Assembly: GCA_021296135.1 (NCBI GenBank)
Contig: JAGWAZ010000004.1
Coordinates: 1 to 55,323, forward strand
DNA: 55,323 nucleotides
DNA from: Chlorobiota bacterium
Lineage (GTDB): Bacteria > Bacteroidota > Ignavibacteria > OLB7
Direction of reading: 5' to 3'
Shown piece after piece: positions 15,745 through 47,965 of this stretch. Both the position numbers and the translations under genes were made by a program. The stretch's first letter is position 1. Every line of letters begins with the position of its first letter. The notes under the pieces are model-generated. The model was not told where the DNA came from. It saw only the letters and a list, made by a program, of their open reading frames with translations, and ran no database searches.

Positions 15745-16299
15745 ATGAAGGATCACGATAACAACATAGAGAAACGGTGGTATGCACTGAGAATTTTTTC
15801 CGGCCATGAGACTCGTGTGCTTCAGCTTCTTGAGAATGAACTCGAACGCCTTGGACTCCTTGAGTTTGTGCCACAGATCATTATACCTCAGGAAAAGGTG
15901 TTTGAGGTTCGTGATGGCAAAAAGCGGACCCGGATGAAGAATTTTCTGCCAGGATACTTGTTGATTGAGGCTATCCTGACGAAGAAAGTGATTGATGTTA
16001 TACAGAATACTCCTTCAGTGATGAGTTTTCTTGGCAGGAAGAATGAACCGGAACCGCTGCAAGGTCATGAGGTCAGACGGATACTCGATCGAATGGAAGA
16101 ACGGAAACATGTTGAGATGATAGTTGAGGCGTTCGAGGTAGGTGATCCGGTGAAAGTTATAGATGGGCCGTTTAACAACTTTTCTGGTGTTGTTCGTGAG
16201 GTCAATAACCAGAAACAAAAGCTTAAGGTGGAAGTCTCGATCTTTGGACGGAAGACGCCTGTTCTTCTTGATTACACGCAGATAGAGATAGAGCGGTAA
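15745..16299 (+). CDS. nusG: Transcription termination/antitermination protein NusG
   Basis: A 184-residue NusG that binds RNA polymerase and couples it to Rho or the ribosome. The N-terminal NGN domain begins RWYALRIFSGHETRV and contains MKNFLPGYLLIE. The C-terminal KOW domain is GDPVKVIDGPFNNFSGVVREV (from ~131). It lies 70 bp after secE. The start ATG at 15745 lacks a clear ribosome binding site. Confidence 0.96.
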   Translation: MKDHDNNIEKRWYALRIFSGHETRVLQLLENELERLGLLEFVPQIIIPQEKVFEVRDGKKRTRMKNFLPGYLLIEAILTKKVIDVIQNTPSVMSFLGRKNEPEPLQGHEVRRILDRMEERKHVEMIVEAFEVGDPVKVIDGPFNNFSGVVREVNNQKQKLKVEVSIFGRKTPVLLDYTQIEIER

Positions 16300-16385
16300 C
16301 AAAAATGAAGTTCATGTAGATCATCGGGAAGGATCACGCGTGGCGTCGACCCGAAACCAGACCACAAACGACTAATTCTATATTT

Positions 16386-19214: not shown

Positions 19215-19278
19215 CTTGAAACAGCCTAAAACGAAACATCTTACCCCAAACAGAATATAATTGACCGGAGGAATCAGA

Positions 19279-22200
19279 GTGAGCACTATGGGAACTAACG
19301 GCTATCAAAAGAAAGAACGTCTATCGTTTGCCCGAGTTGACAAGATTCTCGATATGCCGGACCTGCTCAATGTGCAGGTTGGGGTATATCATGATTTTCT
19401 TCAGGCAGATGATCTATCTGAAGAACGGAATCCAACGGGATTGCAGCAGGCTTTCCTGGCGAATTTTCCGATTCTTGACGCACGTGAAATTTTTACCCTG
19501 GAATTCCTGGACTATCGTATTGAACGATCGAAGTACACTGTTGAGGAGTGCCGTGATCGCGAACTGACGTACGCCGCCTCTTTGAAGGCGCGGCTCCGTC
19601 TCAGCTCAAAGGCCGACGAGGATTCGGATGATTACATCGAGACAATTGAGCAGGAAGTCTATATGGGAAATATCCCGATGATGACCAATCGGGGTACGTT
19701 TGTTATCAACGGTGCTGAGCGTGTGGTTGTATCGCAGTTACACCGTTCGCCCGGTGTCTTTTTCTCCGATGCAATTCACCCGAACGGGACGCGCATCTTC
19801 TCAGCGCGTATTATTCCCTTCCGAGGATCATGGGTGGAGTTCACAACTGACATCCAGAATGTGATGTATGCCTACATCGATCGGAAGAAAAAATTCCCTG
19901 TGACAATGCTCCTGCGTGCTCTCGGATTCTCCTCGGACGATGAGCTTCTGGAACTCTTCTCACTAACTGAGGAGGTCAAGCTCTCTGAGTTGACTGCCGA
20001 TGAAGAGCAGGTGATTGCCGGCGATACTATCGACATGAACACTGGTGAAATTGTTGCCAGCAAAGATGATCCGGTTACCGAAGAGTTGGTGGAGAGGCTA
20101 CAGGAGGCAGGTGTCAAGACCGTGAAGGTCTATACCGAAGATGCTTCGGAAAATGACTCGGTTGTTATCCTCAAGACAATTGACAAAGATATCTCGCGAA
20201 GCGAAGAAGACGCTCTGGAGGCAATCTATCGACAACTCCGTTCAGGCGAGGCCCCCGATCTGGAGACGGCCCGTGCTCTTATTGAAAAGCTCTTCTTCAA
20301 TCCGAAGCGATACGATCTTGGCGAAGTTGGGCGTCATCGAATCAACGATCGATTGAAGCTTGATATCCCAACCGACCAGACAACGCTAACACGCGACGAC
20401 ATTGTTGCGATCATTCAGTATTTGATAGAGCTTCATGCCGGTAAGCGTCAGGTTGATGATATTGACCATCTTGGTAATCGTCGTGTGCGGACGGTTGGCG
20501 AGCAGCTTACGCAGCAGGTCAACATCGGTATGTCCCGTATGGCTCGCACGATCAAGGAGCGGATGAACATCCATGACATGGATAACTTCGCCCCTTCAGA
20601 GCTGGTGAATGCCAGAACGGTGACCTCAGTGATCAACACGTTCTTCGGAACGAACCAGTTGTCGCAGTTTATGGATCAGACAAATCCGCTTTCAGAGATG
20701 ACACACAAGCGGAGAATGTCAGCACTTGGTCCGGGTGGTCTCACACGTGAACGAGCCGGATTCGAGGTCCGTGACGTTCACTATACACACTACGGACGGC
20801 TCTGTCCGATTGAGACACCCGAAGGTCCGAACATTGGTCTGATCTCCTCGCTCTGTATTCATGCTCGAATTAATGATTTCGGGTTTATCGAAACGCCATA
20901 TCGTGTTGTCAAGAATGGCAAAGTAACTGATCAGATCGCCTATCTCTCTGCTGAAGAAGAGGAGGGGGCACTGATCGCTACGGCAACCGTGAAAATCGAT
21001 AAGAATGGAAAGATAGATCAGGAGCGTGTTCGTGCCCGCCGGTCAGGTGACTTTGTGATGGCCGATCCGAAGGATATCGAGTTCATGGACGTTGCTCCTA
21101 ACCAGATTGTCTCGGCTGCTGCTGCTATGATTCCGTTCCTTGAGCACGATGACGCTAACCGAGCTCTCATGGGATCAAACATGCAACGCCAGGCTGTTCC
21201 ATTGCTTCGACCCGAAGAGCCGGTTGTTGGCACGGGCATGGAGTCGAAAATTGCTATCGACTCGCGTGCAATTATCACAGCCGAGCGGGATGGCGAGGTG
21301 CAGTATGTCGATTCAACGAAGGTCGTTGTCAAGTACTATAATGATCTGTCGCGCGACGAGGAACGTGTCACATTCGTTGATGATAGCAGACGCGAGTATA
21401 ACTTGACAAAGTTCTTCCGCACGAACCAGGATACTTGTGTTAACCAGCGACCTGTTGCTAAAGTAGGAGAGCGATTCAAGAAGGGGGATGTTCTTGTTGA
21501 TAGCAGTTCCACCCGAAATGGTGAGCTGGCTCTCGGACGGAACCTCCTTGTCGCCTTTATGCCGTGGCGTGGTTACAACTTTGAGGATGCGATTGTTGTT
21601 TCCGAACGGCTTGTGAATGAGGATACTTACACCTCGGTTCATATCGACGTCCACTCAGTTCATGTGCGTGATACCAAGCGGGGTGAGGAGGAACTGACGC
21701 GGGAGATCCCGAACGTCAGCGATGAAGCGGTGCGTAATCTCGACGAACATGGCATTATCCGTGTCGGCTCCGAGGTTACTGAAGGGGATATTCTGGTTGG
21801 CAAGATTACGCCGAAAGGGGAGACCGACCCGACACCTGAAGAGAAACTTCTCAGGGCGATTTTCGGCGAGAAGGCTGGAGACGTAAAAGATGCTTCTATG
21901 AAACTTCCTCCGGGCAGCAAGGGAGTTGTTATCAATTCTCAGTTGTTCAGTCGTCGCATTATCACAAAGGATACCGATGTGCGCAAGGAGGAGAAGAGGC
22001 GCCAGGAGATGTTGGATCGGCAGATACAGGAGTCGATTGAGACCTACACGAGAATGCTTGCTGAAAAGCTCGGTCATTTGCTCGATGGAGAGATCTCTCT
22101 CGGCATCAAGGATCTTGATGGCTCAACGATAATTCGCGCAGGAACTGCTCTGAAGGATGACACCTTTATCGAAAAGCTGGCCGACGGTGCTGATCTTGCA

Positions 22201-23082
22201 ACCCTTGACGCAGACAAGGACTGGGTCGATAACAAGAAGAAAAACAAGCTGGTTGCCGGCTGCTATCGTAACTATCGTACTGTGATTGGCCGGGTCGTTG
22301 AGGATACAGAGATTGAGAAGAACAAGGTGATTCAGGGGGATGAATTGCAGCCGGGCATTATGCAGATGGCAAAAGTCTATGTTGCCAAGAAGCGCAAGTT
22401 GCAAGTTGGTGATAAGATGGCCGGTCGTCACGGAAACAAGGGTGTGGTTGCGAAGATTGTTCGGGCTGAGGACATGCCATTCCTTCCCGATGGTACGCCT
22501 ATTGACATTGTCCTGAATCCTCTTGGTGTTCCGTCGCGAATGAATCTTGGACAGTTATACGAGACAGCTCTTGGATGGGCAGGGCAGAAGCTCGGCCTCA
22601 ACTTTGCTACGCCGATCTTTGATGGTGCACGTTGGGAAGATGTTGAGGAGTGGCTTGAGAAAGCAGGACTTGATCCGAGTGGAAAGACCGATCTCTATGA
22701 CGGTCGAACCGGTGAGAAATTCGATCAGCAGGTGACCGTTGGCGTTATCTACATGCTGAAGCTTTCTCACCTTGTTGAGGACAAGATTCATGCTCGTTCA
22801 ATTGGCCCATACTCTCTTATCACGCAGCAACCACTCGGTGGTAAGGCACAGTTCGGTGGACAGCGTTTTGGAGAGATGGAGGTCTGGGCGCTCGAAGCCT
22901 ATGGAGCTGCAAACGTCTTGCAGGAGATTCTGACGGTCAAGTCGGACGACGTGCATGGACGTGCCAAGGCATATGAGACAATCGTCAAGGGAGAGAATCT
23001 TCCTGAACCGAATATCCCGGAATCATTCAACGTGCTTGTGCGTGAGCTTCAGGGCCTTGGCCTTGAGGTCAAGATTGACTGA
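19279..23082 (+). CDS. rpoB: DNA-directed RNA polymerase subunit beta
   Basis: 1267 residues from GTG at 19279, chosen because GGAGG lies 7 bases before it; an ATG at 19288 and a TTG at 19261 are alternatives. The rifampicin-binding region SQFMDQTNPLSEMTHKRRMSALGPGG carries the usual sensitive residues (Asp, His and Ser at the E. coli 516, 526 and 531 equivalents). GDKMAGRHGNKGV and the C-terminal GGKAQFGGQRFGEMEVWALEAYGA are also conserved. It forms the catalytic core with the next gene, rpoC, 77 bp downstream. Confidence 0.97.
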   Translation: MSTMGTNGYQKKERLSFARVDKILDMPDLLNVQVGVYHDFLQADDLSEERNPTGLQQAFLANFPILDAREIFTLEFLDYRIERSKYTVEECRDRELTYAASLKARLRLSSKADEDSDDYIETIEQEVYMGNIPMMTNRGTFVINGAERVVVSQLHRSPGVFFSDAIHPNGTRIFSARIIPFRGSWVEFTTDIQNVMYAYIDRKKKFPVTMLLRALGFSSDDELLELFSLTEEVKLSELTADEEQVIAGDTIDMNTGEIVASKDDPVTEELVERLQEAGVKTVKVYTEDASENDSVVILKTIDKDISRSEEDALEAIYRQLRSGEAPDLETARALIEKLFFNPKRYDLGEVGRHRINDRLKLDIPTDQTTLTRDDIVAIIQYLIELHAGKRQVDDIDHLGNRRVRTVGEQLTQQVNIGMSRMARTIKERMNIHDMDNFAPSELVNARTVTSVINTFFGTNQLSQFMDQTNPLSEMTHKRRMSALGPGGLTRERAGFEVRDVHYTHYGRLCPIETPEGPNIGLISSLCIHARINDFGFIETPYRVVKNGKVTDQIAYLSAEEEEGALIATATVKIDKNGKIDQERVRARRSGDFVMADPKDIEFMDVAPNQIVSAAAAMIPFLEHDDANRALMGSNMQRQAVPLLRPEEPVVGTGMESKIAIDSRAIITAERDGEVQYVDSTKVVVKYYNDLSRDEERVTFVDDSRREYNLTKFFRTNQDTCVNQRPVAKVGERFKKGDVLVDSSSTRNGELALGRNLLVAFMPWRGYNFEDAIVVSERLVNEDTYTSVHIDVHSVHVRDTKRGEEELTREIPNVSDEAVRNLDEHGIIRVGSEVTEGDILVGKITPKGETDPTPEEKLLRAIFGEKAGDVKDASMKLPPGSKGVVINSQLFSRRIITKDTDVRKEEKRRQEMLDRQIQESIETYTRMLAEKLGHLLDGEISLGIKDLDGSTIIRAGTALKDDTFIEKLADGADLATLDADKDWVDNKKKNKLVAGCYRNYRTVIGRVVEDTEIEKNKVIQGDELQPGIMQMAKVYVAKKRKLQVGDKMAGRHGNKGVVAKIVRAEDMPFLPDGTPIDIVLNPLGVPSRMNLGQLYETALGWAGQKLGLNFATPIFDGARWEDVEEWLEKAGLDPSGKTDLYDGRTGEKFDQQVTVGVIYMLKLSHLVEDKIHARSIGPYSLITQQPLGGKAQFGGQRFGEMEVWALEAYGAANVLQEILTVKSDDVHGRAKAYETIVKGENLPEPNIPESFNVLVRELQGLGLEVKID

Positions 23083-32697: not shown

Positions 32698-32728
32698 TTG
32701 CAAGGGAAAATTTTCTGCATTACTTTTG
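32698..32728 (+). promoter_or_regulatory. Promoter of tRNA-Gly (GCC)
   Basis: TTG (32698-32700), 20 bases, TACTTTTG (32721-32728): a full match to the Bacteroidota TTG-N19-21-TAnnTTTG form. It lies 20 bp before the tRNA. Confidence 0.65.
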
Positions 32729-32748: not shown

Positions 32749-32821
32749 GCGGGAATAGCTCAGTTGGTAGAGCATCTGCTTGCCATGCAGAAGGTCGCGA
32801 GTTCGAACCTCGTTTCCCGCT
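32749..32821 (+). tRNA. tRNA-Gly (GCC)
   Basis: A 73-base tRNA with acceptor GCGGGAA/TTCCCGC, anticodon loop TTGCCAT (GCC), T-arm GAGTTCGAACCTC. It is a single-gene transcript with its own promoter and terminator. Confidence 0.96.
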
Positions 32822-45049: not shown

Positions 45050-45459
45050 GAGGGGTGGGGTTATTCACAAGATGGCACGATCCCTTCCGATTCACTCGAG
45101 CTTGAAGAGTTTGTGCTGAGGAACAGTTCGAGTGATTTCCACACAAGCGCCCATATTCTTCTTCTAAGGACAATTGCAGGGTATCAGTGTGATTTAGGAA
45201 AACGACTGCTTCGGTTTAGGAGCAGAGAAAGGGGAGTGCAGGCTGGATAACCGCTATATCCGACTAAAGGGCTTGAAAAGGAGAGTGCGTCTCGCTTATT
45301 ACGTTCAGAAAGTCGTAAGAAACGGGAAGCAGATCGAATCCAGTTTTGTACGACGGTTAAAACAGGCAAAATTTGTGTGTTTCCCCTACAATTTTATGAC
45401 AGGCTGTTCCGTCCTCTGTAAAGGAATTGTTCAGCAAAAATAAAATTCTGTACGAAAAC
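45050..45459 (+). other. Gene-poor spacer downstream of pyrE
   Basis: About 410 bp with only short frames on either strand, none with signal peptide, family motif or ribosome binding site. I see no clear gene or repeat. Confidence 0.5.
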
Positions 45460-45489
45460 TTGACTTGCAAAAGAAAAGCATTATATTTG
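45460..45489 (+). promoter_or_regulatory. Promoter of the structured RNA
   Basis: TTG (45460-45462), exactly 19 bases, then TATATTTG (45482-45489): a full match to the Bacteroidota promoter form. Transcription would start near 45496. Confidence 0.7.
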
Positions 45490-45495
45490 TACTCT

Positions 45496-45661
45496 ATGTG
45501 ACAGCAATGCTGTTGCTTCTTTGAAAAGTGTTTATAGACTATCAAGTCTACGCATGATGGGTCTGGGGTGAGCCCATCATGCGGGCCGCCGGAGGTGCAC
45601 ATCTGGTGGCCCACCTCCTTTGAAAGGTCTCCGGGATTTCCTGGAGACCTTTCGCGTTTTT
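45496..45661 (+). ncRNA. Candidate structured non-coding RNA (multi-hairpin)
   Basis: About 165 bases starting just after the promoter and ending at a strong terminator. Successive perfect or near-perfect stems are visible: AGCAA/TTGCT (45503-45517), TAGACT/AGTCTA with an ATCA loop (45535-45550), an 11-bp CGCATGATGGG/CCCATCATGCG (45551-45583), GGCCGCC/GGTGGCC (45584-45611), and the terminator (45623-45652). GGAGGTG (45591-45597) could instead pair with CACCTCC (45612-45618), and CCGGAG with CTCCGG in the terminator, so alternative folds exist. It does not resemble SRP RNA, 6S RNA, tmRNA or RNase P RNA as I know them. The following gene is on the opposite strand, so this is not a leader. Confidence 0.65.
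45623..45661 (+). terminator. Intrinsic terminator of the structured RNA
   Basis: AAAGGTCTCC (45623-45632) pairs perfectly with GGAGACCTTT (45643-45652); three more pairs can extend it inward to an ATTT loop. CGCG then TTTTT follows. Confidence 0.92.
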
Positions 45662-45907: not shown

Positions 45908-47965
45908 TTACAACACTACCTTAAATCCACCCCGAATCTCCCGACCTGGTCCAGGCAGTCCAAGCTGGTAGAGCGTTACGGCGTCGGTGATGTTATCCAT
46001 CCTGATAAATAGTTCAAGCAGGTCAATCCCTGAGACCGGTTGGATTACCTTCCACGACAGACGTGCATTGAATTCTACGGATGGATCAAGCTTCTCGAAC
46101 TGGTTATCATCGTTCAATGAGTAGGCCGTGCCAGTATAGATCGTCTCGCCATCAAGTTGAAGATGAAGGGGGGTCTTCCATGCCAGGTTCAACGTTCCAA
46201 GCTGCTCAGGCTTTTCCGAAAGAAAGGTCAATGAATCGCTTCCTTCAACCTCAGCGCGTACATGCGAAAGCGTGAGATGCCCGCTCGCACGAAGATTGTC
46301 AACGATACGCCAGGAAGCCAGCAGTTCAACACCAAAGGCTCGGCTGCCGGGAAGGTTGATGCGCTGGCGAAGAGTAGGGCCGGGCGTATCGACCGAACGT
46401 TGATCGATTGTGTTTGATGTAAGCTGAGCAAAGAACGTCCCTTCAACCCGAATGCGATCTGCAAGAGTGCCCTTATAACCGAGATCAATACTCAGTCCCG
46501 TTTCCGGTTTCAAGTTTGGATTGATGAGAAATCGGCGCAGCGCCTCGCCATAGAGTTCCCGCATTGAAGGGAAACGACTCTTCCTGCCAAGCGAAAACCG
46601 GCCCCGATCTTGAGGGGAGAATTGATAGGTGATCCCACCGGAAAATCCCGGCTCGATGAACGGATCCTGCTTCGGTTTGTCCGCAGATTCAAGGGTCACC
46701 ATTCCGTCGAGGCTCGCTCCGAGCAGCATCGTAATGTTTCGACCAATCTTGTTGTTATACTCGGATCCAAGACTGAAGGTATATTGGCTATAGCTTTGTG
46801 CAGGGTCTTCTTGTTCAACGCCAAGGCTATCAAACTCCGAGTCGACTTGGTCGTGTCGGGCATAGAGTTGATTGGCAGAAAAACTGATCTTTCCCTCCTC
46901 GAGCTCACGAGCTACTATCGTTCGCAGTCCAAAGGCTGCGTCATCATCTTTCTGCGCTTCGGTCACTTGCCGATACTCTGCCGAAGCATACTGATCGATG
47001 CGTTGGCGAAAGAGCGTTGCCCAGCCAGCACCACGAACTTTCCAAAGATTGTACTGACCAAGCTTGAAGCTATATGTCGCTGTTCCGTTGAAGAGCAACC
47101 ACTCGGGATAACGCCAGAATCTGACGCGGTCAACATCGGGATCTTTATGCCCTTCGGGTGCAATCCCTTTTTCAGAATCGATAAGATTGACAGATAGGCC
47201 GATAGCACTGTTTTCTGAGAAATGATATTCACCTCGACCATAAATGCTGATAGAGCGGTTGTCGGTGTTTGTGCGTTGATCCGAACCGATCTGGTTAAAG
47301 GGTAGGTCTGCGTCAGTAGCAAGTGGTATGCCATCACGCTCTGAGAACGATAGCGCCCCAATGTAATTAAAGTCACCTCGGCGTCCGAGATGTGTAAGAG
47401 ATGTCCTGAGCAGTCCGTTTTCACCGGTTCCTCCTTTGAACTCCGTCAAATATCCGTCCGAGCCAAGCTCTTGTGTAAGAATGTTGACTGCTCCTCCCAT
47501 CACGTTAGCTCCATAGAGAACGCTCGGGGCACCTTTCTCGGCAACGAGGCCACCCACAGCATTTAGAGGAACAAGGCTGAGGTCGATTCTGTTATCCCAG
47601 GGGATGTTCAGTAGCGCACCATCAAAGAAGATTGAAACCTGGCGTTCACCGGCATTACGCAGATAGAGATTTGCTTCACCACGTGAGTTTATCTGGACGC
47701 GGGCTGAAGGAACTTCATATAGAACTGCGCTGACCTCGGAGGCATCTGTCTTGTTCAGTTCGGATGTCCTGACAAGATCACGAGATACAGGGGTGATGCG
47801 CTCGCGACGGGTTTCGGTTATGGTGACCTCACCCATCACATAGATCTGCGTTGAATCTTCTTCGTCGAAGTAAATGGAGTCCACTTGAGAGGTGGTCTGA
47901 GCTTGAACTGATGTGATAGCGAAGGCAAGTGTGATAAAAAAACTGCTCAAACGGACGATGCGCAT
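45908..47965 (-). CDS. TonB-dependent outer-membrane receptor
   Basis: 685 residues with signal peptide (FFITLAFAITSVQAQ) and GGAGA 7 bases before the ATG at 47965. The plug domain (~45-165) shows VMGEVTITETRRERI, SAVLYEVPSARVQI, LRNAGERQVSIFFDGALLN and YGANVMGGAVNI. The C-terminal barrel ends LPGPGREIRGGFKVVL. It takes up a ligand driven by TonB-ExbBD (not in the window). It is the last gene of a likely four-gene minus-strand cluster and starts 47 bp after the previous receptor gene. Ligand unknown from its own sequence; metal or metal complex is suggested by the neighbours. Confidence 0.88.
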   Translation of the reverse strand: MRIVRLSSFFITLAFAITSVQAQTTSQVDSIYFDEEDSTQIYVMGEVTITETRRERITPVSRDLVRTSELNKTDASEVSAVLYEVPSARVQINSRGEANLYLRNAGERQVSIFFDGALLNIPWDNRIDLSLVPLNAVGGLVAEKGAPSVLYGANVMGGAVNILTQELGSDGYLTEFKGGTGENGLLRTSLTHLGRRGDFNYIGALSFSERDGIPLATDADLPFNQIGSDQRTNTDNRSISIYGRGEYHFSENSAIGLSVNLIDSEKGIAPEGHKDPDVDRVRFWRYPEWLLFNGTATYSFKLGQYNLWKVRGAGWATLFRQRIDQYASAEYRQVTEAQKDDDAAFGLRTIVARELEEGKISFSANQLYARHDQVDSEFDSLGVEQEDPAQSYSQYTFSLGSEYNNKIGRNITMLLGASLDGMVTLESADKPKQDPFIEPGFSGGITYQFSPQDRGRFSLGRKSRFPSMRELYGEALRRFLINPNLKPETGLSIDLGYKGTLADRIRVEGTFFAQLTSNTIDQRSVDTPGPTLRQRINLPGSRAFGVELLASWRIVDNLRASGHLTLSHVRAEVEGSDSLTFLSEKPEQLGTLNLAWKTPLHLQLDGETIYTGTAYSLNDDNQFEKLDPSVEFNARLSWKVIQPVSGIDLLELFIRMDNITDAVTLYQLGLPGPGREIRGGFKVVL

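Follow-up and report, generated by a model that had tools for sequence, protein, structure and literature searches.

In Streptococcus, the cia-dependent small RNAs (csRNAs), which are 51 to 202 nt long, carry an unpaired anti-Shine-Dalgarno (anti-SD) stretch between stem-loops that is the proposed blocking element (PMC3091779). The intergenic small RNAs (sRNAs) of B. thetaiotaomicron, GibS among them, are stand-alone genes with an intrinsic terminator and a promoter of the Bacteroidota consensus, TAnnTTTG at -7; many are strain specific, including 27 of the 49 high-confidence ones (PMC7366714). Autoregulation of bS21 (rpsU) via an extended Shine-Dalgarno (SD) sequence has been described in Bacteroidia and Chlorobia, in a setting of weak SD use where the reader of that SD is the 16S rRNA tail of bS21-less ribosomes (PMC9976891).

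Here, we describe a candidate sRNA gene in a 2.86-Mb draft genome of 132 contigs that resembles each of these systems in part. Like the csRNA genes, it is intergenic, has a promoter and a terminator of its own, and would produce a short RNA whose hairpins are split by an unpaired anti-SD stretch; unlike them, it resides in a genome with very little use of SD sequences, and the two share no sequence relation. It has the TAnnTTTG promoter, intrinsic terminator, and stand-alone arrangement of the B. thetaiotaomicron sRNAs, but we saw no sequence relation to these either, and its hairpins are GC rich and compact, with a GC content of 52% for the RNA versus an average of 35% for theirs (PMC7366714). 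The setting recalls bS21 autoregulation in its weak SD use and in an rpsU gene with an extended SD; the difference is that the reader proposed here is a separate RNA bearing the tail sequence.

Promoter, terminator, and fold

The window, by which we mean the whole stretch of 55,323 nucleotides (55 kb) that was analyzed, contains rpoB (19261 to 23082), an SMC gene, and six tRNAs. Near the RNA, the plus strand carries prfB, an unannotated gene, an AtuA-like gene, and a pyrE-like phosphoribosyltransferase gene, which are followed on the minus strand by genes for two TonB-dependent receptors with CarboxypepD_reg domains. The RNA lies in the 860-bp convergent space between the end of pyrE (45049) and the stop codon of the first receptor gene (45908). 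The first-pass annotation had stated that no protein gene follows on the same strand and that the RNA is not a leader. This held, as no plus-strand gene occurs 3' of the RNA before 51933 (an open reading frame at 46610 on this strand is internal to the opposite-strand TonB receptor gene), and there is no regulated same-strand gene downstream of the kind that a riboswitch or attenuator leader precedes. Directly 3' of pyrE, positions 45092 to 45135 hold an inverted repeat of 11 nt, with 91% complementarity and a loop of 22 nt, which is possibly the end of the pyrE operon transcript.

A motif scan identified a promoter on the plus strand at 45460 to 45489, with TTG at -33 (45460 to 45462), TATATTTG at -7 (45482 to 45489), and a 19-nt spacer, from which we infer a transcription start near 45496. 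The combination TTG-N19-TATATTTG fits the Bacteroidota consensus and had been recognized as a full-consensus promoter on first reading. When the 446-bp intergenic stretch was shuffled, 0.35% of the shuffles had such a promoter site within the final 150 bases. On the plus strand of the whole window there are four TTG-N19 promoter sites (1.4 expected), three of which lie directly upstream of a gene (7964), a tRNA-Gly (site at 32698, tRNA at 32749), and the RNA itself. At the other end, a terminator scan and folding identified an intrinsic terminator (45622 to 45661, plus strand), composed of a 14-bp stem (45622 to 45653) in which 11 pairs are contiguous Watson-Crick pairs, the trinucleotide GCG, and five T residues (45657 to 45661). 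This is the terminator hairpin that had been noted earlier; it passed the terminator scan and is slightly imperfect in that the T-run begins 3 nt past the last stem pair. The structured region is thereby bracketed by the elements of an intergenic sRNA gene, an upstream intergenic promoter and a Rho-independent terminator at the 3' end.

Folding also recovered all five of the successive stems that had been read from these 165 bases. The minimum free energy (MFE) is -85.3 kcal/mol, compared with -51.0 ± 4.2 kcal/mol for dinucleotide shuffles (z = -8.1), and among 5,518 window-strand positions scanned over the 55 kb with a correction for base composition, the RNA had the strongest fold (-6.1 standard deviations; runner-up, -3.95). 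In order along the plus strand, the predicted parts are hairpin 1 (8 bp; 45498 to 45516), a first unpaired linker, UUCUUUGAAAAGUGUUUA (45517 to 45534), hairpin 2 (6 bp; 45535 to 45550), hairpin 3 (10 + 2 bp, 12 bp in all; 45552 to 45582), hairpin 4 (11 bp with G-U pairs and the loop GGUGCACA; 45583 to 45612), a second linker, ACCUCCUUU (45613 to 45621), which is unpaired and has the anti-SD sequence, and the terminator hairpin. The perfect 11-bp stem of the first-pass annotation belongs to hairpin 3, with the arms CGCATGATGGG (45551 to 45561) and CCCATCATGCG (45573 to 45583). Taken together, these features indicate that a stand-alone small RNA of about 165 nt is probably transcribed from 45496 to 45661. 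The two linkers are alike, with CTTCTTTGAAAAGT (45516 to 45529) and CTCCTTTGAAAGGT (45615 to 45628) agreeing at 12 of 14 bases, a likeness reached by 0 of 60 shuffles; this is perhaps a duplicated seed.

The second linker and the 16S rRNA tail

The stretch CACCUCCUUU (45612 to 45621), which consists of C45612 and the second linker, is identical to 10 nt at the 3' end of 16S rRNA, the anti-SD tail. The reference for this comparison came from a genome of the same family, where the 16S gene ends in ...GGATCACCTCCTTT (in full, CTGGATCACCTCCTTTCAAGG); the source genome's own 16S gene was not among the pattern matches. Nine of the 10 bases lie free of pairing between the hairpin 4 stem and the terminator hairpin, and the first is paired. 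The linker is unpaired in both the MFE and the centroid structure, and it thus presents an unpaired anti-SD between stem-loops, as csRNAs do. Exact matches to the anti-SD arose by chance in 0.06% of shuffles for 10 nt and in 1.6% for 8 nt, figures that apply to a match noticed post hoc. The stretches GGAGGTG and CACCTCC, singled out on first reading as able to pair, are an SD/anti-SD pair, an identity that had been missed, as had the likeness of the linker to the 16S tail. Other csRNA features are lacking: the TTTAAG of CiaR-type promoters does not occur in 45430 to 45496, and no anti-start-codon CAU lies within or next to the linker; the closest one (45600 to 45602) is partly in the loop and partly in the stem of hairpin 4. 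The absence of a neighboring anti-start-codon element counts against action through the linker. The RNA plausibly works like csRNAs, but with neither a CiaR promoter nor an anti-AUG element it is not a member of that group.

The RNA exposes a copy of the 16S tail, so it may block the translation of the few messages whose SD site is strong. We tentatively favor, at somewhat less than even chance, a lineage-specific, trans-acting sRNA that masks such sites through its anti-SD linker. A housekeeping-type promoter of its own would make the RNA, and the intrinsic terminator would end it. Its four stable hairpins, together with that of the terminator, would protect it and display the linker, ACCUCCUUU(G), identical to the anti-SD tail. 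This linker would pair in trans with the start regions of the few mRNAs with an extended SD, for which rpsU and a VOC/glyoxalase-like gene are candidates, and the pairing would block initiation.

The genome itself uses SD sequences weakly, as sampled on 446 kb. The strong SD site AAAGGAGGT occurs 29 times, versus 31 times for the reversed control. Across 334 sampled genes, the median pairing of start regions with the anti-SD is -3.9 kcal/mol, versus -3.8 kcal/mol for shuffled queries, with strong start-region sites in small excess (13% versus 7% when shuffled). The rpsU gene (contig C122, about 16,110 to 16,301) has an extended SD, CAAAGGGGGUGA, whose pairing energy of -16.8 kcal/mol is stronger than that of all 334 sampled genes (best, -13.3 kcal/mol). 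An extended rpsU SD is also found in four family relatives (-15.2 to -17.7 kcal/mol), and these sequences suggest that this lineage shares the bS21 autoregulation of Bacteroidia and Chlorobia. Together with the promoter type, the weak SD use, and the CarboxypepD_reg domains of the TonB receptors, the extended rpsU SD would place the genome in the Bacteroidota or a close neighbor of that phylum. Two similar short open reading frame starts, AAAGGAGGTTAGCRATGAAACGCAAC, with a strong SD occur at C71:4360 and C80:6447 and are apparently remnants of a repeated element.

Duplex energy favored rpsU as a unique target of the RNA, as the linker and rpsU form 11 bp at -18.0 kcal/mol. In full RNA-RNA cofolding, however, rpsU came no higher than 9th among the 331 start regions (-14.0 kcal/mol; mean, -7.5; standard deviation, 2.8), so no single target stands out; rpsU is a good candidate, but a unique role for it was not retained. 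The VOC/glyoxalase-like gene, which has AAAGGAGGT five bases before its ATG, ranked slightly above rpsU. We consider it doubtful that rpsU is the main target. Equally doubtful is the more specific proposal that the mimic of the 16S tail is a competitor for the extended SD of rpsU, and perhaps of a few other genes, and would in this way set how much bS21 is supplied or what fraction of the ribosomes lacks it.

The promoter, terminator, and fold would fit equally well with a genuine intergenic sRNA whose seed is not the anti-SD linker and which would act through a loop, a bound protein, or its 5' linker (UUCUUUGAAAAGUG), with the 16S likeness a coincidence. The best cofolding scores are spread over many start regions with no clear winner, as this account would have it, and strain-specific intergenic sRNAs are ordinary in Bacteroidota (PMC7366714). 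Coincidence sits less easily with the rarity of an exact 10-nt match in shuffles and with the position of the 16S-like stretch, which, its first base excepted, falls in an unpaired linker. We regard this account as possible.

Relatives and remaining explanations

The RNA is an orphan, found in one genome only among those searched. BLAST and a single-sequence covariance model (R1) revealed no homologue in 4 same-family, 294 class, and 396 phylum genomes; the model was run on the class, the phylum, and the 38 closest relatives, and BLAST of relatives, same-family genomes, plasmids, and phages returned nothing convincing. The best outside covariance match (genome G016; 23 bits, E = 0.0026) was the sole one below an E value of 0.01 and was rejected, as it looks like the 3' end of a tmRNA followed by a terminator; the remaining matches were partial or gapped. 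In nine relatives, the genes next to pyrE differ and the 900 bases downstream of it hold nothing comparable to the RNA. The strong hairpin that follows pyrE in one relative (G022) is an unrelated repeat-like palindrome. A pyrE scan found no same-genus genomes, and the closest relatives are distant (pyrE identity of 59% or less); therefore, absence there says little about the genus. A 17-mer spanning the linker, sought in about 85,000 species, matched 22 stretches, approximately the chance number, none with the hairpin-linker-terminator layout, and it had no match in viral contigs. Rfam returned only chance matches at the gathering threshold and at E values of up to 10, the best being flavi_FSE on the opposite strand (28.9 bits versus a gathering score of 43). 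This agrees with the earlier impression that the RNA is no familiar housekeeping RNA. We also dropped attC sites, REP elements, CRISPR, and retron parts as candidates, since the element is single copy and has no adjoining partner gene. The lack of a homologue, and so of any conservation of the linker, counts against anti-SD action, as does the post hoc nature of the match.

The same lack of a homologue, together with the 860 bp of intergenic space, would be in keeping with chance inverted repeats or the decayed ends of a mobile element and no expressed, functional RNA. We judge this unlikely in view of the fold (z = -8.1), the correct placement of promoter and terminator, and the presence of just one copy of the element in the genome, with no family of repeats.

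The first-pass annotation had further proposed a switch or regulated RNA based on mutually exclusive pairings. The complementary stretches are present as described, but forcing GGAGGUG to pair with CACCUCC gives a structure 7.1 kcal/mol above the main fold, and forcing CCGGAG to pair with CUCCGG gives one 27.7 kcal/mol above it. Moreover, in shortened transcripts hairpin 4 is already the MFE structure before its competitor CACCUCC is made. Because the alternative pairings are energetically poor, the switch is not supported, and with no same-strand gene downstream to control, a switch or conditional attenuator is very improbable. Pairing of the loop 4 GGU with the linker ACC as an H-type pseudoknot was rejected on geometric grounds, since the 11-bp stem would have to be spanned without any free nucleotide. 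Descent from a housekeeping RNA, 6S RNA for example, would accord with the size and the separate promoter, and the 6S model (RF00013) has no match in the RNA or anywhere else in the genome, but such an origin is hardly credible for an RNA that matches no such Rfam family even at an E value of 10, folds into five local hairpins rather than one long rod with a central bubble, and is not conserved even within its family.

Our tentative preference thus stays with action through the anti-SD linker, for which accessibility in the cell, targets, and direction of effect are as we infer them. For a Bacteroidota-like lineage that has received little study, the RNA is an additional, well-delimited sRNA. 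Should the linker work as proposed, it would show how an anti-SD seed can be specific in an SD-poor genome, where in most bacteria such a seed would be promiscuous, and the RNA would form a second layer on top of the known control of bS21.
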